NCBI RefSeq assembly: GCF_003966565.1
Contig: NZ_AP018719.1
Location: forward strand, 1-64,000
DNA from: Sulfuricystis multivorans
GTDB taxonomy: Bacteria > Pseudomonadota > Gammaproteobacteria > Burkholderiales > Rhodocyclaceae
DNA length: 64,000 nt
Direction: 5' to 3'
The position numbers were made by a program, and so were the translations under genes. Shown in pieces: positions 52,964 through 62,424 of the stretch. Within the stretch, counting starts at the first letter, position 1, and the number at the start of each line of letters is the position of its first letter. The notes under the pieces were generated by a model. It was not told where the DNA came from. It made no database searches and worked only from the letters and a program-made list of their open reading frames with translations.

Positions 52964-53129
52964 CCGCGATCCTTCCCGGATCTTGATCGGGATAGGGGCG
53001 ATCAGGATACCTGACCGAGCCCCTCCCACACCGCCCGGCATGCGGGTCCGCACCTGGTGGTTCGAGAAGTTGTCCATCGGCTCGCAGCTTCGCTCCACGC
53101 TTCCTCCCCACACTCGGTCACCCTCATGC

Positions 53130-53209
53130 AGTTGCGCTTCGCTTCGTTCGCTGTGATCAACTTACGGGAGGACTTTCACTTCCAAGAGTGCGCCCGTGCC
53201 GGGCGCACA
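53130..53209 (+). repeat. Copy 2 of the ~80-bp inverted repeat
   Basis: Reverse complement of 41806-41880, with an extra CGCTT duplication near its left end. The stem GTGCGCCC-GTGCC-GGGCGCAC closes it. The 52964-53129 stretch before it has no gene. Confidence 0.8.
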
Positions 53210-53240
53210 CAAAAAAAAAAGCAGCCCTCGGGCTGCTTTT
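53209..53240 (-). terminator. Terminator of the 53254-53714 operon
   Basis: On the minus strand, AGCAGCCC-GA-GGGCTGCT is followed by a run of ten T. The plus strand has a TTTT on the other side, so it may work in both directions. Confidence 0.75.
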
Positions 53241-53253
53241 GATTTCTCGTTCC

Positions 53254-53454
53254 TTAGCGTTTCCGTTTTCTTGTTGAAGCGCAGGAGACTTCGGTGCTGG
53301 CGTTCATGTTGATAAAGCGAGCCGATCCGCTCGCGGACAGCTCTTCATGGATAGCTCTGGCAGCGCCTATCAAAGGCGCGAAATACAACCTTGGACCTTC
53401 GCGAGCGGCTTGCCAGAACTCATTAATGATGCCATGCCCTTTTTTCATTTCCAC
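53254..53454 (-). CDS. Small hypothetical protein
   Basis: 66 residues; AAGGAGATG lies upstream of ATG 53454. It overlaps the end of the membrane protein gene by 10 bp and ends in a Lys/Arg tail (ASTRKRKR). No family recognised. Confidence 0.5.
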   Translation of the reverse strand: MEMKKGHGIINEFWQAAREGPRLYFAPLIGAARAIHEELSASGSARFINMNASTEVSCASTRKRKR

Positions 53455-53714
53455 ATCTCCTTCACAGACTTGAAGGCGGTCACCACCAGGTAGATGATGA
53501 ACAACCCAGCATCTGCTACAAGAATAGCACGCTCTAGGAAGCTGAGCACCACGATGGTGAACCCATCGATTTGTGCAGCACCCAGGGCGTGGACGAGAAG
53601 GGACAGGCCCACAGCGGGAGCGCCAATGATCAAGAAAAGAACGCTACCGATGAAGGTGTGCCCGGCGAACTGGACAATTGGGGTCCAGAAAGACTTCTGA
53701 TTTTTGTTATGCAT
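53445..53714 (-). CDS. Small membrane protein behind a structured leader
   Basis: From ATG 53714, after AAAAAGGAGAAC, the product has 89 residues with two or three hydrophobic helices (FIGSVLFLIIGAPAVGLSLLV; AILVADAGLFIIYLVV). An in-frame extension to 53786 would run through the leader hairpin and is rejected. This is the first of seven genes with the shared leader. Confidence 0.6.
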   Translation of the reverse strand: MHNKNQKSFWTPIVQFAGHTFIGSVLFLIIGAPAVGLSLLVHALGAAQIDGFTIVVLSFLERAILVADAGLFIIYLVVTAFKSVKEMWK

Positions 53715-53751
53715 AGTGTTCTCCTTTTTGGGGTTGAAAAAAACCCGCCGG

Positions 53752-53785
53752 AGACCACACAGCATCCCCGTTAGGGACTTGTGCA
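53752..53785 (-). promoter_or_regulatory. Nested leader hairpin, copy 1
   Basis: On the minus strand: outer GCACA/TGTGT, inner GTCCC-TAAC-GGGGA-like stem. It is the weakest of the seven copies. No TGCGTTAT hairpin is seen upstream. Confidence 0.45.
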
Positions 53786-53815
53786 ATCCCCCAACGGGCG
53801 GTTAGTTGGCTAGGC

Positions 53816-53935
53816 TCAGGAATCGAGCTTCGCCAAATTGAGCAGCGTTTCTGCTAAGTCAGCCTGGTCAGCATACTTCATCTTTACAGCTCGCTTACTG
53901 CGATAAGCCGCAAGACACAGCGAGTTTAGGACCAA
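53816..53935 (-). CDS. Possible 39-residue protein
   Basis: A frame from TTG 53935 (AAGGG upstream) or ATG 53881 reads CLAAYRSKRAVKMKYADQA and LAETLLNLAKLDS, a regular, protein-like helix. It lies immediately upstream of the leader of the 53714 gene. It may be a small gene or the end of a broken one. Confidence 0.35.
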   Translation of the reverse strand: MVLNSLCLAAYRSKRAVKMKYADQADLAETLLNLAKLDS

Positions 53936-54085
53936 GCCAAGGGAAACCCTTGCAGGGTTAACCTAGCACGGGTTGAGACCCCACACCGCAAGGTGCAGGA
54001 TGAAATCAGCCTCTATCGCTTGGCTGCTGGCGTTCGTCCTCACGGATCAAAACCGGCGGCTCTTCTTTCTTAAAGAAGAGAAATA

Positions 54086-54126
54086 CTTTCTTGAGTAGCC
54101 TGTCCATTCAGGACTGCTCAAGAAAG
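54086..54126 (-). terminator. Large hairpin after the GHKL ATPase gene
   Basis: CTTTCTTGAG pairs with CTCAAGAAAG around an inner stem (GTCC/GGAC). A second hairpin, CTCTTCTT/AAGAAGAG, lies at about 54059-54080. The 53936-54085 stretch otherwise holds no gene. Confidence 0.6.
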
Positions 54127-54163
54127 GCCTCTCCCAGAGGGAAAGGCCAGAAGACAGTCGGGC

Positions 54164-55810
54164 TTATTCAGCTGTGACCGTCATGTTGCCGTCTGCGTCG
54201 AACTTCACGCGGAAGCTGCTATTGCGGAGGTTGGTCTTGTTACGGACGCCTGCATTGTAGAGACACTTCTTAAGGGTTTCTACAGCCGGCTCACCGGACA
54301 TGATCGCAACCAAGTCGTCAAAGAGAACAGCGTCGAGCTCGTAGTCGGTTTCGCAGTACTTATCGTTGGAGTCGGTGTAGGTCGATGCCTGCCGTAGTAC
54401 ATACCCGGCATGAGTGATGCCCTTGGGTACTAGGAACGTGCGCGAGCCACCCCACTCACCAGATCCAACAGCAACGGCCTCAGTCAGTGGATGCTTAATG
54501 CCGGCGATCGTGACCGACAGGTTCTCCATCAATTTCACGTCGCCATCGACCCAGCCACCGCTGAAGTGATCGGTGGCCACCGCGCGGCCGCTTACTTTCA
54601 CCTCCTCTTCTCCGAGATTCCGCAGGTGCTTTACTGCCCAATGCTGCTCGGGCAGCTCGCTCGAAACGAAAATGACCTTGGCTTTCTCCGCCCACATGAG
54701 GCGTGCGAAGTAATCGCCACAGTCTTCCTCGTTGTATTCGCGGAAGAGCATTACCGCTCCAGACACCACTTGGGTTTCCGTTATCTGCTCACTGCACTGA
54801 TACAGGAAACCGTCACCGTCTTCTACCAGCCTCGGTGTCTCTCCCACATAGGTCAGGACCTCGGTGGGCAAAACTGGCACGTCAGCCATTAGATCGAGAC
54901 ACTCCGCGTGCCTCGCTTTCGACCAGCAGGTCTTTACGAAGTCCGCAGGTGACATCTCCGCCTTTTTTGCTGCCAGATACTCCCGCCAGATCTCCTTCAG
55001 GGCCATATTGATATCCTTGGCTGCCTGTTGCGGGTCGATCAGGCTGTCGCGGTCCGGCATGCGCGGCATGTATCGCAGGTGGTCGACATGCACAATCGGG
55101 CGGATTTCTTTGCCGTAGTGGGGTGTGAAGCTTGATACATTGACCGGCAGACCCTGGCAGTAGACATAACCATAGGGCACGAACCATGTATTGGAATCGT
55201 CATGGATACCAGGGACGTGGATGAACCCAACGGACGTTTGCTTTCCTACCAGATTTGCTTGCGCGTGCGGCCGCGGCAACTCTTCTCCCCGCCAGAAGAC
55301 GGGAATAGCGAAGCCTTTGGCGTAGATGGCAAGCGCTTGACCTACTTTCTCCGCATCAAGCTTGCAGCCATGCAAAGTGATTCGCGTGCCGCCGATGAAG
55401 CTGGACGGCTCGACTGCGATTTTGCGCTTGGCAATCAGATCCTCCGAGGAGAACTGAATCTGCTTGCCTTTGCTTTCGACACGGACGCTCTCGGCGGCAA
55501 AACAAACCGAGAAAAAGCCAATGCCGAAAGGGCGTTCGCTATCCATCGTTTCCTGAGACCAGCCCGACTCAGCTACCGTGATGAGCGCACGGAAGTCGGC
55601 GATACCGCAGCCGTTGTCCGTGATCGTCAGGGAGGATTCCGAGACGTCGTAATCGAACACGATTGAGCTGGCACCAGCACGCCGGCCGTTCTGCAAACAT
55701 TCCGCGAGGACGGTGGTCGACGTGCTGAAGAGCGTTTTCAGGTGCTCCAGGAAGCGGGATTCGTTGACGCCGCTGGTGATGCTGTTGCTTTCGAGTGCTG
55801 CTTGATTCAT
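54164..55810 (-). CDS. GHKL (Hsp90-like) ATPase
   Basis: From ATG 55810, after AAGGAGATTTGCC, the product has 548 residues; an extension to 55918 would cross the leader hairpin. The N-terminal ATPase has the N box VLAECLQNGRRAGAS, G1 ITDNGCGIADF and G2 PFGIGFFSVCF. A transducer-like second domain follows to about residue 300, with an unassigned C-terminal half. Hsp90-, MutL- and MORC-like proteins share this layout. It is a single-gene unit with its own leader and terminator, next to an unknown gene of similar layout. Confidence 0.8.
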   Translation of the reverse strand: MNQAALESNSITSGVNESRFLEHLKTLFSTSTTVLAECLQNGRRAGASSIVFDYDVSESSLTITDNGCGIADFRALITVAESGWSQETMDSERPFGIGFFSVCFAAESVRVESKGKQIQFSSEDLIAKRKIAVEPSSFIGGTRITLHGCKLDAEKVGQALAIYAKGFAIPVFWRGEELPRPHAQANLVGKQTSVGFIHVPGIHDDSNTWFVPYGYVYCQGLPVNVSSFTPHYGKEIRPIVHVDHLRYMPRMPDRDSLIDPQQAAKDINMALKEIWREYLAAKKAEMSPADFVKTCWSKARHAECLDLMADVPVLPTEVLTYVGETPRLVEDGDGFLYQCSEQITETQVVSGAVMLFREYNEEDCGDYFARLMWAEKAKVIFVSSELPEQHWAVKHLRNLGEEEVKVSGRAVATDHFSGGWVDGDVKLMENLSVTIAGIKHPLTEAVAVGSGEWGGSRTFLVPKGITHAGYVLRQASTYTDSNDKYCETDYELDAVLFDDLVAIMSGEPAVETLKKCLYNAGVRNKTNLRNSSFRVKFDADGNMTVTAE

Positions 55811-55834
55811 GGCAAATCTCCTTGCAAGGAATTT

Positions 55835-55952
55835 GCGGGCAGCACTCCCCGGCGGGAAATGCCCCCGCAGGGTTGAAGATACCCAAGGCCCTTCGGCCAA
55901 AGGAAAAATGCGGTCCATAACGCAGGACGCGCGGGCGTTGGCCTCTCACGAG
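55835..55952 (-). promoter_or_regulatory. Structured leader, copy 2 (GHKL gene)
   Basis: Minus strand, 5' to 3': hairpin CTC-GTGA-GAG (55943-55952), AACGC, hairpin GTCC-TGCGTTAT-GGAC (55913-55928), then the nested hairpin with outer GCGGG/CCCGC and inner TTCCC/GGGGA stems (55835-55868), followed by the ribosome binding site. Confidence 0.7.
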
Positions 55953-55963
55953 ACAAAACCGAT

Positions 55964-56007
55964 GGTTTTCTTGAATGCCCTGGTCTTGCAGGACGCTCAA
56001 GAAAACC
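55964..56007 (-). terminator. Large hairpin after the 56036 gene
   Basis: GGTTTTCTTGA and TCAAGAAAACC pair across an inner GC-rich hairpin (GTCC/GGAC-like). It ends the 56036-57361 transcript. Confidence 0.65.
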
Positions 56008-56035
56008 GCCCTTGCGGACGGTAAGGAGCGAATCC

Positions 56036-57361
56036 TTAATGGTCGGTTTGGCTGTATTTCAGCACCTTCGCAAGCATGATTTCGTTGAGTTCGTCTTTAG
56101 CATGCTTGATACCGAGATAGCCCCAGCTTTCATCTGCTTCGTCCTCGATGATCCGGCCGGTTGAGCGATCGATCACGTAACACAGCACGCCATAGACGTT
56201 GCCGTTCACCCAATCGTTGTACTCCTCGAGGACACCATTGCAGTATTCCACTGCCTTGGCATTCATCAGGGAGTCCAGCGCCTTCCGGTCGATGGGTTTG
56301 GAACTTGCCGCGACCATTTGATCGAGCGCTTCACGCCACTTCCAGCCTTTGCCTTCCCCCACCCAGGTTGAACCGTCCAGGGTGAATCTGGCATGCAGCG
56401 GATCGGTCTCGCTGCCGAGCGCACCAAACCAGGCAACCTGGCCGATGCCAAGTTCAGAAAGCACATTCGACAGGATATTGTCTATGGCATCCTGATCAGG
56501 CACCCACACTGCGGCGGCGCGAGACGTATCCCAAAGGCAATTCATTCCGGTCCCGCTCACAGAGTAGGCGAAGCCGCCGTGCTCATAGATGTCGAGGGGA
56601 ATGGCCAAGGGATTACCCACTTCGCCAGCTGAGAATGCTTCATCCCAGCAGGCCTCAACCTCAGATTCTGAGATAAGGTCTGCTAGCGGTTGAAGATCAT
56701 CCTGCAGCTTGCTGTCCAGTCGATTCCAGAAGCGGACGCCGTAGAGAGCGTCTGCTATGTAATCGAGGGCATATTTCCAGCCTTCCTGGTCAATCGCGAA
56801 CTGAATCACGTTTTCCAGGCTCGCTTTCGATACGGGACGACCGGTAGCACGCAAGCGGTGCATTAGCCGCGTGAGAAGCGAGAGATCGTTGCTGAGCCTT
56901 TTCATCACACGCTTCACGATCCGGTCCGTAACGACTTGGCATGAGAAATCCTTGTTGCCATCGCCGTCAAGGCCGAGCGCAGCGTAATAGCTTCGCTGCT
57001 CATCAGCATCACCACGCCATTTGCTGGCGTGATAGATGTTGCCGTTGGCCATACCCGGTTCACAGGGATTCAGGTAACTCGAATCCTGGTCATAAGCAAG
57101 GCCACCAGCGATGATGATGCCGCGATCGAGGACCACCATGCGTTCTTCGATGTCCGGAGAGATGCGCATGCAGCGGCGAACATCGATGGTGTCTTCGTCC
57201 TGATTTTCTCCGGACACCGGAACCTCGCCGATGCTGTAAGACACTTCCACGACTCCGGGCAACGCTTGCGCGCGTGTGGAGAAAGTGGCGTTTTCCAATG
57301 CTATGACCGTTTCCGGCCGAAGAACCTTCTTATTTAAAGCAGCTTCTTTGTTGCTAAACAT
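56036..57361 (-). CDS. Hypothetical protein, 441 residues
   Basis: A soluble, acidic protein. The N-terminal part is beta-rich (VVEVSYSIGEVPV, ISPDIEERMVVLDRGIIIAGG); a helical middle (VVTDRIVKRVMKRLSNDL) and an acidic C-terminal half follow. No motif or family recognised. AACGGAGGTATCCC precedes the ATG. It shares leader and terminator style with the GHKL gene and could be its partner; this is inference from position. Confidence 0.6.
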   Translation of the reverse strand: MFSNKEAALNKKVLRPETVIALENATFSTRAQALPGVVEVSYSIGEVPVSGENQDEDTIDVRRCMRISPDIEERMVVLDRGIIIAGGLAYDQDSSYLNPCEPGMANGNIYHASKWRGDADEQRSYYAALGLDGDGNKDFSCQVVTDRIVKRVMKRLSNDLSLLTRLMHRLRATGRPVSKASLENVIQFAIDQEGWKYALDYIADALYGVRFWNRLDSKLQDDLQPLADLISESEVEACWDEAFSAGEVGNPLAIPLDIYEHGGFAYSVSGTGMNCLWDTSRAAAVWVPDQDAIDNILSNVLSELGIGQVAWFGALGSETDPLHARFTLDGSTWVGEGKGWKWREALDQMVAASSKPIDRKALDSLMNAKAVEYCNGVLEEYNDWVNGNVYGVLCYVIDRSTGRIIEDEADESWGYLGIKHAKDELNEIMLAKVLKYSQTDH

Positions 57362-57379
57362 GGGATACCTCCGTTAAAC

Positions 57380-57490
57380 AGGGGCCCATGCTCCCCGGTG
57401 GGGAATGTGGCCCCACAAGGGAAAGACGATAGTGATACTCGTCAGTGGCAGGTCATAACGCAGACCAGTTCGCGTCCTCGGACACCCGAG
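57380..57490 (-). promoter_or_regulatory. Structured leader, copy 3 (56036 gene)
   Basis: Minus strand: hairpin CTCGG-GTGT-CCGAG (57477-57490), ACGC, hairpin GGTC-TGCGTTAT-GACC (57451-57466), and nested hairpin with outer GGGGCC/GGCCCC and inner TCCCC-ACC-GGGGA (57380-57414). The stems differ from other copies but pair perfectly. Confidence 0.75.
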
Positions 57491-57575
57491 AGAACTAGAA
57501 ACCCCTATGTCAGTGGGTTATGATCTGTTTGAGGCATTGATTTGCCTCGTATTTCATCACTAGGAGAAAAACGCA

Positions 57576-57860
57576 ATGAATAAATCCGAACTCGTGGACG
57601 CCATCGCTGCCGGCGCCGACATTAACAAAGCAGCTGCAGGCAAGATCCTGGACGCATTCATCGACACCATCATAGCTGCCGTCGCCAAGGGCGATCAGGT
57701 GACCCTGGTGGGCTTTGGTTCCTTCAAGGCTTCCACCCGGGCTGCGCGCACCGGCAAGAATCCGAAGACCGGCGCCAAGATCAAGATTCCGGCAACCACG
57801 GTGCCGAGGTTTTCCGCCGGCGCCGGCTTCAAAGCGGCCGTGGCGAAAAGGAAGAAATAA
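57576..57860 (+). CDS. hup: HU-family nucleoid protein
   Basis: The 94-residue product matches HU: MNKSELVDAIAAGADINKAA, VTLVGFGSFKASTRAARTG, NPKTGAKIKIPATTVPRFSAG and the basic C terminus. HU bends DNA, helps origin opening and partition, and often appears on large plasmids. CTAGGAG precedes the ATG, and a hairpin GAGGCA-TTGATT-TGCCTC lies in the leader. It diverges from the 56036 unit and is the only plus-strand gene in this block. Confidence 0.93.
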   Translation: MNKSELVDAIAAGADINKAAAGKILDAFIDTIIAAVAKGDQVTLVGFGSFKASTRAARTGKNPKTGAKIKIPATTVPRFSAGAGFKAAVAKRKK

Positions 57861-57870
57861 CGCCTCGCTC

Positions 57871-57928
57871 AGTTTTCCAGGCGGCCTGCATCAGACCGTC
57901 TGGAAAACTCCCCGACAAGGACGGGGAG
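57871..57928. terminator. Terminator pair between HU and the Toprim gene
   Basis: AGTTTTCCAG (57871-57880) pairs with CTGGAAAACT (57900-57909) around an inner CGG/CCG stem. A second hairpin, CCCCG/CGGGG, follows at about 57910-57926. The first suits HU, the second the convergent Toprim gene. Confidence 0.65.
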
Positions 57929-57947
57929 AAGTTGGTGAATCACGTGA

Positions 57948-58997
57948 TTAAGCTGCCTTGAGAGCATTGACACCTTCGAGGACATCCAGCCAGTCAATCC
58001 CTTTCCTTCCTTCAGGGATATCGCTAGGTGGGAGTTCTACGCCAGCCTGGATACCGCATTTCCACAGCCGCTCCGCCAACGCCTTTGCAGCTTCCTGCCC
58101 ATGACCGCTTGGGTGGAATTTGCTCGGGCTGTCTTTGTCAGCAAAAATCGTGACGCGCTTGATGCCCGGAGGAGGAATAAATTCCGCCATCAGGCCGGCC
58201 GTAACGGTTGCCCAGCAAGGAATGCCAGTCATTTCCGTCACAGCAAGCGCCGTCTCGATGCCTTCGGCCACCGCGATGGTGTCCATAGCCGGGAAAAGTC
58301 TAATGGCCGCACCTTGCAGCGGGCGGTAGCTCGCATGGGGGCACAGCTTCTTCGGCGACTCGACGGGGGCCTTGCGACCATCCTCCGAGAGGAACGTCCG
58401 GTGAATGGTCACCGGAGTGCCATCGGGTGCCATCACGCAGGCCATGAAACCTGGGAAGTGTCCGACCAGCTCGCCTTTCTCGTAATAGGCCATCGACGGG
58501 TGAAAACGAACGCTCTGGAGATTACGAGGCGGCTTCAGTCCGCGTCCCATCAGGTATATCCAGAACAAACGTGCTTCGTCGCTCTTGATGGAGCGGCCGC
58601 CGTTCCAGAGAGCCATGAGACGCTGCCGGATCGCGGCATCTTCACGGGCAGTGTCACGCTTGCGCGTTTCACGACAGACAGGAGTCAACTCGGGCTTTTC
58701 ACCCAAAATCATCCGACCTATCTCTGACAACGTGTCCTTGAACGTCCAGTCATTCACTGCCCCGATCAGCGCAATACCGTCGGGCCAGTTTCCGCAGGTA
58801 CAAACACCGCCACCAGTGTCAACAACGTCACGATAGACCCGGAAATCACGAGCCCCTCCATGCATCGGGCAGTCTATATGCACGAGCCCAGGACGATCCA
58901 ACGCAGGAGATATCGACGGCGCTAGCGTCCGGATGATCCGGTCCCACATGCCAGCGGCTTTGGCCTTGACATCCTTTTTGCAGATGCTTTTCGACAT
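57948..58997 (-). CDS. Toprim-domain protein with zinc finger
   Basis: From ATG 58997 the product has 349 residues. An N-terminal finger (CPMHGGARDFRVY and CTCGNWPDG) resembles phage primase/helicase fingers. The middle reads FHPSMAYYEKGELVGHFPG. Toprim follows: IAVAEGIETALAVTEMTG, then RVTIFADKDSP and HGQEAAKALAERL (E and D-x-D-like). Such proteins are common on plasmids and may act as primases or DNA-processing factors. An intact catalytic Glu and Asp are visible. Confidence 0.82.
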   Translation of the reverse strand: MSKSICKKDVKAKAAGMWDRIIRTLAPSISPALDRPGLVHIDCPMHGGARDFRVYRDVVDTGGGVCTCGNWPDGIALIGAVNDWTFKDTLSEIGRMILGEKPELTPVCRETRKRDTAREDAAIRQRLMALWNGGRSIKSDEARLFWIYLMGRGLKPPRNLQSVRFHPSMAYYEKGELVGHFPGFMACVMAPDGTPVTIHRTFLSEDGRKAPVESPKKLCPHASYRPLQGAAIRLFPAMDTIAVAEGIETALAVTEMTGIPCWATVTAGLMAEFIPPPGIKRVTIFADKDSPSKFHPSGHGQEAAKALAERLWKCGIQAGVELPPSDIPEGRKGIDWLDVLEGVNALKAA

Positions 58998-59015
58998 GGT
59001 GTTTCCTTTAACAAA

Positions 59016-59124
59016 GGGCACCATGCCCCCTGTCGGGAGATGGGCCCGACCAGAGGATCCTCACCAAACATCGGTGAGGGCAGCAGCTCATTACGCAGAG
59101 CCGTAAGCGTTCTCGGTCACCCGA
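59016..59124 (-). promoter_or_regulatory. Structured leader, copy 4 (Toprim gene)
   Basis: Minus strand: TCGG-GTGA-CCGA (59113-59124), AACGC, GCTC-TGCGTAAT-GAGC (59086-59101), and nested hairpin with outer GGGCCC/GTGCCC-like and inner CTCCC-GACA-GGGGG (59016-59047). Confidence 0.7.
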
Positions 59125-59221
59125 AAAAACCTTGCTTTTCGCCGCCCCCGTTGGCACAGGAGCGCTGAGAAGCCCCCTCCAGCCGGAAGGGGAAAGGATG
59201 CGAACACCTTGAAGTGCAGCG

Positions 59222-59614
59222 TTAGACCTGCATCGCCAGATCGGCGTAGCAGACCTCGAGCGCAGCTTCACGGTCATCCGCTTCAGCCTGGTAGTAATCA
59301 CGACGCTCAAGCAACGCCTCAAGAATGGCGTCCACCAAGAAGGTGTAGGCCATCTTGGACGGGTTCTGGTGGCCAGAGCTGTGACGCCACACCACCCGGT
59401 ACTGCTGATCCGGATAGGCGCGGACTTCGAGGTGATAGTAGTACCGCCAATCACTGCCGACGCGGCACGACCACAACACCGCCCCCTCTTCCGGGATGGA
59501 GTTGATGGCGAGCTGGGCCGCTGCTGCCACGGCATCCAGATAGGCGGCTTTAGCGAGGGGAATGACTTTGTTGCCGGACTTCCGCAGCGTGGCGATCATG
59601 GGAAAGCTTTTCAT
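59222..59614 (-). CDS. Hypothetical protein, 130 residues
   Basis: A helical N-terminal part (LAKAAYLDAVAAAAQLAIN) leads into a beta-hairpin (LWSCRVGSDWRYYYHLEVRA) and a Glu/Ala-rich end. No family recognised. CAAGGAG precedes ATG 59614. Confidence 0.6.
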   Translation of the reverse strand: MKSFPMIATLRKSGNKVIPLAKAAYLDAVAAAAQLAINSIPEEGAVLWSCRVGSDWRYYYHLEVRAYPDQQYRVVWRHSSGHQNPSKMAYTFLVDAILEALLERRDYYQAEADDREAALEVCYADLAMQV

Positions 59615-59633
59615 GGTGCAACTCCTTGGTAGA

Positions 59634-59739
59634 GAGGAGCACCACTCCCTGTCGGGAGTTGTGCCCCCGACGGGAACCTCACGAAGGTGAGGGGATAGCT
59701 GCTCATAACGCAGAGCAGTAGGCGTTTCCGATCACTCGG
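59634..59739 (-). promoter_or_regulatory. Structured leader, copy 5
   Basis: Minus strand: CCGA-GTGA-TCGG (59728-59739), AACGC, GCTC-TGCGTTAT-GAGC (59701-59716), and nested hairpin with outer GGGCAC/GTGCTC and inner ACTCCC-GAC-AGGGAGT (59634-59668). The first stem swaps base pairs relative to copy 4 and still pairs. Confidence 0.75.
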
Positions 59740-59754
59740 GAAAACCGGTCATGC

Positions 59755-59795
59755 AGCTTTTCGGAGCGTCCTCAACGAAGGCGCTTTGAAAAGCT
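59755..59795 (-). terminator. Large hairpin after the 59834 gene
   Basis: AGCTTTTC pairs with GAAAAGCT around an inner AGCG/CGCT stem. Confidence 0.6.
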
Positions 59796-59833
59796 CCCCA
59801 ACCAGAGGTCAGGGAGAACTGCCGGGCTCCTCA

Positions 59834-60298
59834 TCAGAACCGCGCGCGAAGAAAGGCGGAGCGAGCGGCGGCGTCAATCGCCATGCGATTACCGATTACC
59901 GCCGAGGCAGAACCGACCGTGGAATCGACGATGATGTTGCCAATGCTGTTTTGCTGGGCGCGAACGGCTTCTTGACGCTCTTCCATCGTCTTGTACTGTG
60001 CATAGACTTTGGTAAGACGCATCATGACTTCAGGCTTTTTGGCCTCGCGTTGATCTTCGGGATACTGAGCCAGGATCTGATCAGCAGCCTTGTCGATCTC
60101 GGCGTTTTCGCGCGCCTTGCGATCTTCTTCGGATTCCTGAGTTACGGCCTCCTTGGCCGCGTCGACGACAGAATGAACACCCTTGCTCAGAAGACGCGAG
60201 GCAGCGTCGACGAGAAGTCCGGTCAGCAGGTCGGCACGAGCAGGGGTGCTGGCGACAAGCAGGGCGAAAAGAAGAGACAGGGTGATACGTGCTTTCAT
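59834..60298 (-). CDS. Exported protein with charged helical body
   Basis: 154 residues with a signal peptide (ITLSLLFALLVASTPARA). The mature part is helical and highly charged (ESEEDRKARENAEIDKAADQ). No family recognised. GAAGGAG precedes the ATG. Confidence 0.6.
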   Translation of the reverse strand: MKARITLSLLFALLVASTPARADLLTGLLVDAASRLLSKGVHSVVDAAKEAVTQESEEDRKARENAEIDKAADQILAQYPEDQREAKKPEVMMRLTKVYAQYKTMEERQEAVRAQQNSIGNIIVDSTVGSASAVIGNRMAIDAAARSAFLRARF

Positions 60299-60324
60299 GG
60301 TGGAACTCCTTCGATAAACGAAAA

Positions 60325-60437
60325 GGGCACCATGACCCCTGTCGGGGAAGGTGCCCCGATCAGGGAAGTGTCGCCGTGGCGACGGTGAGCGGCTTCGATC
60401 ACGTCCGAAGCAGTAAGGGACGAGCTGATAACTCAGC
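60325..60437 (-). promoter_or_regulatory. Structured leader, copy 6
   Basis: Minus strand: hairpin GCTG-AGTTAT-CAGC (60424-60437), and nested hairpin with outer GGGCACC/GGTGCCC and inner CCCC-GACA-GGGG (60325-60357). The GTGA hairpin is not clear here. Confidence 0.7.
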
Positions 60438-60445
60438 CAAGTAAA

Positions 60446-60486
60446 GGGTCTTCTTTATGCGACCAGTGGTCTCATAAAGAAGACCC
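60446..60486 (-). terminator. Large hairpin after the 60519 gene
   Basis: GGGTCTTCTTTATG pairs with CATAAAGAAGACCC around an inner GACC/GGTC stem, a 14-bp outer stem. Confidence 0.7.
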
Positions 60487-60518
60487 CTCGAAAGATCGAA
60501 AGGGTCTAATGCTGCAAG

Positions 60519-60716
60519 TTAACGACGATGTGTGGAAATGACGGATTTTGCATCCCGAAACGCATGGAGCGCAGCAGAAAGCTTGGCACCGACAAATCCA
60601 AGGACGAAGCCGAAGAGCACGACTTTTCCAGCAAGCAGAGCCTGTTCAAAAGAATGGCCAGCAACCAGATAGGCGATGCTCAGAGCAGCGATCCAAACTA
60701 TCATCATAACTTTCAT
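60519..60716 (-). CDS. Small two-helix membrane protein
   Basis: From ATG 60716, after TAGGAGACACTGTG, the product has 65 residues with two hydrophobic helices (VMMIVWIAALSIAYLVAG; VVLFGFVLGFVGAKLSAAL). A longer frame reaching 61007 crosses two hairpins and is rejected. No family recognised. Confidence 0.6.
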   Translation of the reverse strand: MKVMMIVWIAALSIAYLVAGHSFEQALLAGKVVLFGFVLGFVGAKLSAALHAFRDAKSVISTHRR

Positions 60717-60733
60717 CACAGTGTCTCCTAAAA

Positions 60734-60767
60734 GGGGACACCGTGATCCCTGTCGGGATGGTGTCCC
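60734..60767 (-). promoter_or_regulatory. Structured leader, copy 7
   Basis: Minus strand: nested hairpin with outer GGGACACC/GGTGTCCC and inner ATCCC-GACA-GGGAT, a nearly perfect copy. Upstream, a separate GAATAGCCCC/GGGGCTATTC hairpin lies at 60792-60813. The 60814-61190 stretch has no gene I can support. Confidence 0.75.
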
Positions 60768-60969
60768 GACGAGGGTGGATACGCTGGAGCGGAATAGCCC
60801 CGTGGGGCTATTCACGCTTGATCCAGCGGCGATCAACTTCTGCAGAGCTGATCTGGGGTTCCATTCTTGATATGCGCAGAACATATCTTCATGACGAGCA
60901 TAGACCGCGCGCCAAACGAACCCGGCCCAAAGGCCAGCCAAAATTTGGGGAGTCCGATGCAGAGCATCG

Positions 60970-60993
60970 AAAAAACTGTCACATATGTGACAG
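60970..60993 (-). terminator. Perfect 18-bp palindrome plus T-run
   Basis: On the minus strand CTGTCACATATGTGACAG (60976-60993) is followed by TTTTTT. A further hairpin, GGACGCTTT/AAAGCGTCC, lies at about 61054-61074. They could end a transcript whose gene was broken by the IS to the right. Confidence 0.65.
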
Positions 60994-61189
60994 GTGACCT
61001 GCACCAAGAGGACAGGTCATAATGGCCTACAACCGCAGGCCAGAGTCCGGAAGACGGACGCTTTGTGAAAGCGTCCGCGACCGAAATAGCGGATTGAATA
61101 TCGACAACCCGTAAGACGCCAGTGAGATTGCACCGGAACAAACATCCTGCAGTGCTGAATCTTTGTTAGTTATTCTATCTATTATCAAT

Positions 61190-62299
61190 TCAGATTGCAA
61201 GCCTTTGTATTCGTCCAGTACCTTTGGCACTCTGGGTGATGGGTGAGGAGCCATTGTACTGGGGAGAGGAGTCCTAAGCGATGGTGGGGGATGAGGGTGT
61301 TGTAGGCGACCAGCCAGTCGGTAAATCAGCAGAAGCAAGGTTCAAGGTGAAAGGTGAAAGGTGAAAGGTGAAAGGTGTGAAAGAACGAAACCTTGCCTCT
61401 TTTGCCTTGCGCCTTGAGTCTTGCTCGTGTATTCGGCATGGGCGTTCATTTTGGGGCTCTTAGGGTAGGTCCAGTAGTGGGTGAGGCCAAAGCGTGTGAG
61501 GGTCTGGTGGAAGGCGCCCTTGAACTCCGAGCCGTTGTCGGAGAGGAACAGGAGTTAGCGGGACGTATCTGCAGCAAGCCCTTGCACGAGGGCTTCGGCC
61601 ACGCGCGCGCTGTAGCGGGCATGCTTGCTTGGCAGGGCCACGGCAAAGGCCGTGGCCGAGACGGGGGCGATGGCGGTGAGCACATAGCGGCGGATGCCAT
61701 CGCGCACCCGCTCGATGGTGTCTACGGCCCACAGGGTCAGCGGCGCAGGCTTGAGGTCTTGGGGTTTGCGCGCCTTGCGCGCGCAGCGCACGGGTTTGAC
61801 GCGGCCGCGTGCATCGAGCCGGTGGGGGGTGAGGCGCATCTTGTCCGGCGCGCGGGAGATGATGCGGCCAATGGTGGAAACCGACGGCAGGGCGATACCC
61901 TGCTTGGCACACCAGGGGGCAAGCAAAACGTGGAGCTTTTCCTTGCCCAGGTTGGGGTAGAGCGTGCGCAGCCGTCTCATCTCGGCCACCCGCCGCACAT
62001 CGGTCTTGGGAACCCTGCGCCTTTTGGGTGCGCAGGACTTCGCGGCCAGAGCCGCCGGGTTGCCGCCCGCCTCCTTGAGGGCCCTCTTCCAGCGGTAGAG
62101 GGTTCTGCGCGACACCCCGAAGGCATCGACCGTGGCGGCCAGGCCGTGTTTGTCAAAAAACCGCAGAATCTTCAGTCGTTCTTGGGCATCTTTGGGGATC
62201 ATCCCTGCCTGTGCGTTGCACGCAGACAGGTCCCAAAGATGCCCCAGCTTCGCTATCCGGTAAAACCCCCGAACTCGGTATCCAACGTGCTGAACCCGC
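61190..62299 (-). pseudogene. IS481/IS3-like DDE transposase, decayed
   Basis: The N-terminal part is intact from about 62299 (or 62202): KDAQERLKILRFF, VSRRTLYRWKRALKEAGGN, LTLWAVDTIERVRDGIRRYV. An in-frame stop at 61555 interrupts it. The next segment in the same frame continues LFLSDNGSEFKGAFHQ to PKMNAHAEY, then the sequence jumps to four copies of GGTGAAA at 61343-61379. The C terminus (FTDWLVAYNTLIPHHRLGLL) is found in another frame, ending near 61190. It should be inactive. Confidence 0.75.
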
Positions 62300-62424
62300 A
62301 TGGCGCTCCTTCCTCCACAAAGGAGTGCCAAAGGTTTCTGAACTTATGCAGCCTTTAATTCGCTCTTTTTGATCAGTTTCATCCATCCATCGCGGACGGG
62401 GACTTGGCGGGATGGTCGATCGGT

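Follow-up and report, generated by a model that had tools for sequence, protein, structure and literature searches.

What kind of element sets a nested hairpin in front of seven genes of a single cluster, and what might it do there? The question is raised by a 64,000-nucleotide (nt) stretch of DNA from Sulfuricystis multivorans (contig NZ_AP018719.1, positions 1 to 64,000; hereafter, the window), in which an original prediction described an outer stem enclosing an inner stem just before the ribosome binding sites of the genes starting at 53714, 55810, 57361, 58997, 59614, 60298 and 60716. These seven hairpins are real; each stands directly 5' of a Shine-Dalgarno sequence, and there is an ATG on the minus strand at all seven start positions. 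The observation is also larger than first described, and it concerns a kind of mobile-element leader RNA that is known but unexplained. We consider it probable that the leaders are cis-acting bistable RNAs, in which a 5' recognition region precedes a 3' platform of five strands and the platform is tipped by a trans-acting factor made by the element itself.

Two alternative folds at the ribosome binding site

Folding of the leaders divides their 3' part into five strands, which run 5' to 3' as s1 (CCC..), s2 (GGG..), s3 (CCC-loop-GGG), s4 and s5 (the Shine-Dalgarno sequence and the start). In state A, s1 and s2 pair with s3 (helix A1) and s4 pairs with s5 (helix A2). In state B, s2 pairs with s4 around a small s3 hairpin and the ribosome site is free; the nested hairpin of the original prediction is this state, just one of the two. 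Both s2 and the ribosome site are complementary to s4 and therefore compete for it, and s2 resembles the ribosome site. The seven switches are as follows, with outer stems (s2 with s4) taken from duplex folding.

60715..60776, minus strand: switch of gene 60716 (65-amino-acid (aa) membrane-like protein); A1 60763-60776 with 60747-60758; B 60759-60768 with 60734-60743; A2 60732-60746 with 60715-60730, hiding the Shine-Dalgarno sequence and start; s2 GGGACACC, s4 GGTGTCCC, s5 AGGAGACACTGTGATG
60296..60367, minus strand: switch of gene 60298 (154 aa); A1 60353-60367 with 60335-60348; B 60349-60362 with 60318-60332; A2 60321-60335 with 60296-60313; outer stem GGGGCACC with GGTGCCCT
59612..59676, minus strand: switch of gene 59614 (130 aa); A1 59664-59676 with 59645-59657; B 59660-59671 with 59631-59643; A2 59632-59645 with 59612-59626; outer stem GGGGGCAC with GTGCTCCT
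58995..59057, minus strand: switch of the primase-like gene 58997 (Toprim_3, Zn_Ribbon_Prim, DUF7146); A1 59044-59057 with 59026-59038; B 59039-59048 with 59015-59025; A2 59013-59026 with 58995-59010, hiding the Shine-Dalgarno sequence and ATG; outer stem GGGC CCAT/ATGG GCCC, one unpaired base inside
57359..57423, minus strand: switch of gene 57361 (441 aa, no Pfam family); A1 57410-57423 with 57392-57403; B 57404-57415 with 57380-57390; A2 57377-57391 with 57359-57376; outer stem GGGGCC CAT/ATG GGCCCC
55811..55873, minus strand: switch of gene 55810 (548 aa, HSP90-like ATPase domain); A1 55862-55873 with 55847-55857; B 55858-55870 with 55833-55847; A2 55828-55837 with 55811-55822, weak and hiding the Shine-Dalgarno sequence alone; outer stem GCGGG/CCCGC and further pairs
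53715..53799, minus strand: divergent switch copy of gene 53714 (89-aa membrane-like protein); A1 53787-53799 with 53766-53777; B 53779-53791 with 53749-53762; A2 53749-53759 with 53715-53725, hiding the Shine-Dalgarno sequence; outer stem GGGGATTGCACA with TGTGTGGTCTCC

Helix A2 pairs the Shine-Dalgarno sequence at least partly in all seven copies and at least two start-codon bases in five (57361, 58997, 59614, 60298 and, from a separate fold, 60716); every copy has a strong A1 hairpin. Two exclusive structures of which one masks the ribosome site, as in a riboswitch, are thus found by computation, weakly in 55810. From this pairing of the Shine-Dalgarno sequence and start, we infer that the leaders may control translation.

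The original prediction held that stem pairing is kept while sequence changes, and this is supported: outer-stem letters differ from copy to copy, and across 22 leaders own s2:s4 partners do better than permuted ones (0/5000). A GACA inner loop, described (exactly or nearly) for most copies, is present in four of the seven (60716, 60298, 59614 and 58997), but the other three carry ACC, GCC or TAAC. MAFFT failed to hold s2 and s4 in register, and permutation tests were therefore used instead of R-scape. Our main test set comprises 22 leaders picked by their upstream domain, so as not to select for the result. Seven are from this contig, four of them within the window, and represent seven of the eight sites matched there by R1, a model of the upstream hairpins described below (54005 was omitted). 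The other 15 are 13 motif sites and two R1 sites of a Sulfuritalea contig; none of the ten R1 sites of plasmid pAZI09 is included, and the s3 core was placed one hairpin too early in two rows (142443 and 60860). The s2:s4 duplex measures -14.3 kcal/mol with a copy's own partner versus -10.2 with those of other copies, s4:s5 -10.9 versus -8.5, and s1s2:s3 -17.6 versus -15.6, each equalled by 0/5000 permutations; the control pairing, s2:s5, gave 3250/5000. Because a test on all 50 collected copies is biased by the energy thresholds of the scanner that gathered them, weight is placed on the 22 leaders and on a parallel test of radC RNA tails, given below.

Pairing was also compared between strands in 34 leaders, the 22 together with 12 of the 18 radC tails. 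Composition does not account for the greater strength of s2:s4 on the mRNA strand relative to the complementary strand (0/5000), and s4:s5 shows a bias at 48/5000. The s2:s4 bias points to RNA over DNA and supports the original prediction in part.

The upstream domain and the distribution of the leaders

The nested hairpin is one part of the element. Regular leaders are about 135-150 nt long and include an upstream hairpin and pseudoknot domain. It opens with a small hairpin, H1, whose loop begins GT; a linker leads from there to a second hairpin, H2, which has TGCGTTAT or a similar sequence as its loop. The 5' region usually contains a variable hairpin, H3, too. R1, the H1/H2 model, matches five of the seven window leaders; its matches lie 291-341 bases 5' of the start codon in 53714 and about 83-151 bases 5' of it in the other four.

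59697..59747, minus strand: upstream domain of the 59614 leader; H1 (GTGA loop), linker AACGC, H2 (loop TGCGTTAT), linker:loop pseudoknot; R1 E-value (E) 1.3e-19, a copy among those in the model
59082..59132, minus strand: upstream H1/H2 of the 58997 leader; R1, copy in the model
57447..57497, minus strand: upstream H1/H2 of the 57361 leader; R1, copy in the model
55909..55961, minus strand: upstream H1/H2 of the 55810 leader; R1, copy in the model
54005..54055, minus strand: divergent upstream H1/H2 of the 53714 leader; TCC GTGA GGA, AACGC, AGCC AAGCGATAGA GGCT; R1 E 1.5e-5, copy outside the model

By eye, the 60298 leader has a divergent upstream domain 5' of its switch (GCTGA GTTA TCAGC ... 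CTTCG GACGTGAT CGAAG); in the 60716 leader, neither R1 nor reading by eye recognised one. In a set of 12 copies that includes orthologues, drawn from the window contig and pAZI09, pairing holds in 107 of 108 H1/H2 cells and both sides are altered in seven of nine pairs. Covariation in these copies is 0.694 versus 0.216 when shuffled, a value that 0/500 shuffles reach; H3, for its part, covaries among 13 common Sulfuritalea leaders. Linker and H2 loop can pair with each other, in letters that vary: AACGC:GCGTT in the window, CGTC:GACG in 60298, and ACGA:TCGT, AAGC:GCTT, AGG:CCT and TGC:GCA in Sulfuritalea copies. The matched linker:loop runs of 15 leaders were equalled by 34/20000 permutations (two of 17 motif strings were omitted, one not located and one a radC), and among six hand-picked types the true arrangement was the best of 720, in an exact test chosen after looking at the data. 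These complementarities support, without proving, an H-type pseudoknot between linker and H2 loop. The conserved letters of the 5' domain are specific to each element, namely AACGC/TGCGTTAT in the window and pAZI09, AATGC/GGCACTC in Sulfuritalea and CCCAGG/CUUCAA in radC RNA.

On the 149-kb contig that holds the window, R1 has eight matches (E 1.5e-5 or better), of which two are independent and six are copies that went into the model; its best match in the rest of the genome has E 0.04, on the 2.56-Mb chromosome. On pAZI09, a conjugative plasmid of Azospira sp. I09 that carries the cluster at 86.8 percent identity over 91 percent of the query, there are ten (E 2e-11 or better), again with six model copies. 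The seven window starts, in a cluster common to a conjugative plasmid, thus have 5' leaders of mobile-element genes, as radC-type RNAs are. Fifteen of 297 family genomes, the source genome included, have an R1 match at E 0.01; reading by eye of all 15 matching places outside that genome left one convincing, a contig of 202,208 bases from a Sulfuritalea metagenome-assembled genome, with about 30 leaders on a single strand. These largely precede other genes, encoding a ParB-like protein, DNA ligase, a PAPS-reductase-like protein, PRTRC E protein and a MoxR-type ATPase; the last is common to this contig and that of the window. Relatives of the MoxR protein were found on pAZI09 alone among plasmids (E up to 1e-40), in Sulfuritalea alone in the genome collection (two peptide patterns), and not in viral contigs. 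The original prediction spoke of a plasmid regulon; the element does precede many genes of a plasmid-like contig, but it extends beyond one plasmid.

A strict scanner gave minus:plus matches of 16:2 on the window contig, 17:11 on pAZI09 and 38:10 on the Sulfuritalea contig. Markov-shuffled controls (five each, both strands) gave 0-7 (individually 7, 2, 0, 2 and 0), 8-18 and 5-12, respectively. The 28 pAZI09 matches are about twice the controls, and many must therefore be chance. Plus-strand matches were taken as chance throughout. Rows dropped on reading were 12948 and 73634 (chance) and 76081 (a duplicate register) on the window contig, 228348, 153374, 216286 and 159320 on the pAZI09 minus strand, and 71414, 160123 and minus-strand matches above -38.9 (with 108770 and 142443 kept) on the Sulfuritalea contig. 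By this reading, 13 leaders are probable on the window contig, 13 on pAZI09 and about 30 on the Sulfuritalea contig. Among ten gene starts in a first-pass folding of pAZI09, one proved to be an alternative register of the primase start and 28237 lacked such a leader; 27883 has the upstream domain and an ambiguous switch.

A second model, R2, was made from 13 Sulfuritalea leaders and none from the window. It finds the 58997 leader (58995-59131, E 4.2e-7) and the 59614 leader (59612-59747, E 2.5e-5), both matches ending at the start codon, and more weakly the 57361 leader (57358-57496, E 0.021). Further matches lie on the window contig and pAZI09, the strongest finishing at or near a start codon. 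Among 399 order-level and 369 class-level genomes (overlapping sets, source genome included), R2 matches five and six, respectively. Judged by eye, seven R2 loci (L079-L085) have the appearance of switch leaders, and one of these lies on a different contig of the source genome; two more, L086 and L087, lack that appearance.

Several further features stand out. Locus L083 of the source genome (C3:81024-81190, plus strand) has a switch-like leader before a 140-aa open reading frame (ORF) with a GTG start, and locus L073 of the Sulfuritalea contig (4628-4715, minus strand) contains two sub-threshold CRISPR-DR4-like repeats. A possible 21-aa ORF (MKYADQADLAETLLNLAKLDS; 53816-53881, minus strand) falls between the upstream domain at 54005-54055 and the 53714 switch. 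By eye, the T-rich terminator tail of the upstream gene is complementary, in many leaders, to an A-rich tract 10-20 bases before H1 (TTTCTTGA..TCAAGAAA and GCTTTTC..GAAAAGC are examples); such sites occur in the window at 54126-54148, 56005-56022 and 60484-60503 (minus strand) with the stretches after them, and in Sulfuritalea leaders. Within the cluster, on the opposite strand, is an HU-family gene (57576-57860, plus strand; Bac_DNA_binding, E 6.9e-31) with homologues on pAZI09 and the Sulfuritalea contig. Beside the cluster, a 258-aa ORF (61558-62331, minus strand; HTH_23, E 2e-8) looks like part of an insertion sequence.

A proposed mechanism and its competitors

Computation establishes the complementarities, the compensating changes and, in most window copies, the exclusivity of the two states, as well as recurrence across plasmids and beside radC RNAs. 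In the mechanism we propose, the mRNA would begin 5' of H1, and the 5' region of a regular leader (H1, linker, H2 and usually H3) would be the likely recognition domain. State A would hide the Shine-Dalgarno sequence, and in most window copies the start codon, in s4:s5 and so turn translation off. State B would free the ribosome site through s2:s4, with s2 competing for s4 as a mimic of that site, and turn translation on. A trans-acting factor, protein or small RNA, could bind the 5' region and tip the balance, placing many backbone genes under joint control; it is expected to be encoded by the element because the 5' region is largely uniform within an element and different between elements. 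ProQ and CsrA were considered as effectors and rejected, as neither is on the plasmid elements tested. If the mechanism is true, mobile elements set tens of backbone genes at translation, among them genes for a primase, a ParB-like protein, a ligase, a MoxR ATPase and a PRTRC protein.

A number of results weigh against this mechanism. Helix A2 of the 55810 leader is weak and barely excludes B. Sigma-70-like promoters occur at chance frequency (4 versus 3.6 expected). ProQ/FinO is absent from pAZI09 and the window genome, though the Sulfuritalea genome encodes it once, on a contig other than the one with the leaders, and CsrA is absent from all four genomes or records searched. The linker:loop pairing is uncompensated among radC variants, and H1, H2 and linker are nearly invariant, hence uninformative, among the 13 common leaders of Sulfuritalea. 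The s1s2:s3 pairing has no strand bias in any set (4063/5000 in the 34 leaders), and in the 12 radC tails alone the s4:s5 bias is absent (4391/5000) and that of s2:s4 weaker (163/5000). Lastly, opening the ribosome site costs 8.6 kcal/mol in 13 leaders versus 7.5 at 31 other starts of the same contig (p 0.10), and the start codon is no more often paired in the leaders (p 0.39), so that 'off by default' is unsupported. The unremarkable opening cost fits near-balanced bistability but also a lack of regulation.

Two results would suit a constitutive 5' structure that does not switch but stabilises the mRNA or keeps upstream sequence away from the ribosome site: the ribosome sites show no measurable excess of closure over other starts of the contig, and a strong A1 hairpin is present in 7/7 window copies. 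We regard this explanation as unlikely, as s4 is kept complementary to both s2 and s5 where a static hairpin needs one partner, and as the mRNA-strand bias of s2:s4 speaks against it.

Alternatively, the leaders could be small-molecule riboswitches, with the H1/H2 pseudoknot as a metabolite aptamer and the A/B strands as its expression platform. A compact hairpin and pseudoknot with conserved loops, above a two-state platform, has the right form. To our knowledge, known aptamers keep their conserved letters, whereas those of the 5' domain change between elements; moreover, R1 has no copy below E 0.04 off the window contig in this genome. A riboswitch therefore seems quite improbable.

The leader genes are co-directional on a plasmid-like contig, the pairing is possible in single-stranded DNA too, and s1s2:s3 lacks strand bias. 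Each of these would suit a DNA element, either operator dyads or single-strand hairpins acting in conjugation, as in the single-stranded promoters of leading regions. Promoters of this kind (Frpo type) are hairpins with -35 and -10 elements in the transferred strand, beside oriT. Against a DNA element, s2:s4 prefers the mRNA strand beyond composition, stem letters vary freely as those of operators do not, and the 3' partner is the Shine-Dalgarno and start region; we judge it very improbable. Finally, chance GC-rich hairpins on a plasmid of about 56 percent GC are scarcely credible: the scanner does find matches in Markov-shuffled sequence, and those of pAZI09 are only about twice the controls, but the permutation and covariation tests, the minus-strand excess of 16:2 and 38:10 on two contigs and the cross-species R2 matches all contradict chance.

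Relation to radC RNA and other known systems

Translation attenuators, such as the ermC leader, and the expression platforms of riboswitches form exclusive hairpins of which one hides the ribosome site. The window leaders are like them in this respect. They differ from both in that s2 resembles the ribosome site and in their number, which reaches a dozen or more per element; a leader peptide was not identified in them, though no systematic search was made. STAXI RNA (RF01728) is described as tandem pseudoknots found in Enterobacteriales near genes for DNA-handling proteins (PMC2864571). The likeness here is that of a pseudoknot-containing motif near such genes, and RF01728 has no match in the window or the relatives scanned.

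The closest comparison is with radC RNA (RF01754). Table 1 of Weinberg et al. 2010 (PMC2864571) enters it as an RNA ('Y') of Proteobacteria, cis-regulatory ('y') and with a question mark for switch. A 2020 paper (PMC7657543) counts radC among families given a structure with more covariation support than those of the databases; we found no paper on its mechanism within the library searched. The original prediction could not match the hairpins to a named RNA family, and indeed there is no Rfam 15 match at the window leaders: a tRNA is the sole match at gathering score in the window, and the nine sub-threshold matches in 53000-61500 (E up to 10) all lie elsewhere than the leaders. RF01754 likewise has no match in that interval at E up to 10, and in the whole window genome its gathering score (40 bits) is not reached (best 21.8 bits; all 19 listed matches are chromosomal); for this reason we do not class the window leaders as radC RNA. 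Nevertheless, RF01754 RNAs have a 3' switch of this kind and, by eye, a similar arrangement of parts. One R2-matched genome holds ten radC RNAs above cut-off, nine on the R2 match's own contig, where R2 matches have E 4e-6 to 0.085 and one overlaps a radC copy. By eye, nine radC copies are followed by, or run into, a switch of the s1-s5 type and a start codon. radC RNA is present in 8 of the 399 order-level genomes, and we read 30 loci. In 18 of these (near-identical tails and L104 were omitted, some similar ones retained, and segmentation is imperfect in several), own partners were matched or bettered by 3/5000 permutations for s2:s4, 0/5000 for s4:s5 and 2/5000 for s1s2:s3, with 4935/5000 for the control.

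Both kinds of RNA, then, are 5' leaders of several hairpins, repeated before the genes of one contig, in which a hairpin, a linker, a hairpin with a conserved loop and a further hairpin appear to follow one another; in the radC copies read, the two-state switch stands directly after the Rfam match or overlaps its end. The order H1, linker, H2 with conserved loop, H3 and nested 3' hairpin is alike by eye, a comparison that makes no claim of homology. They differ in their conserved letters, in the linker:loop pairing, which is unsupported in radC variants, and in that the RF01754 match (149 positions) ends before the switch in most copies read. Our best reading is that the window leaders are a new variant of the radC-type mobile-element leader controlling translation. 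A wider idea, which we would doubt slightly more than we would back, is that radC RNA and the window leaders form one superfamily, united by a two-state switch that mimics the ribosome site, with recognition domains that would be interchangeable and specific to each element. A plasmid or integrative element would then govern translation of dozens of its backbone genes through a private RNA code, read by a factor that it encodes itself. If the two-state switch is true, it offers radC RNA and its relatives a testable mechanism.

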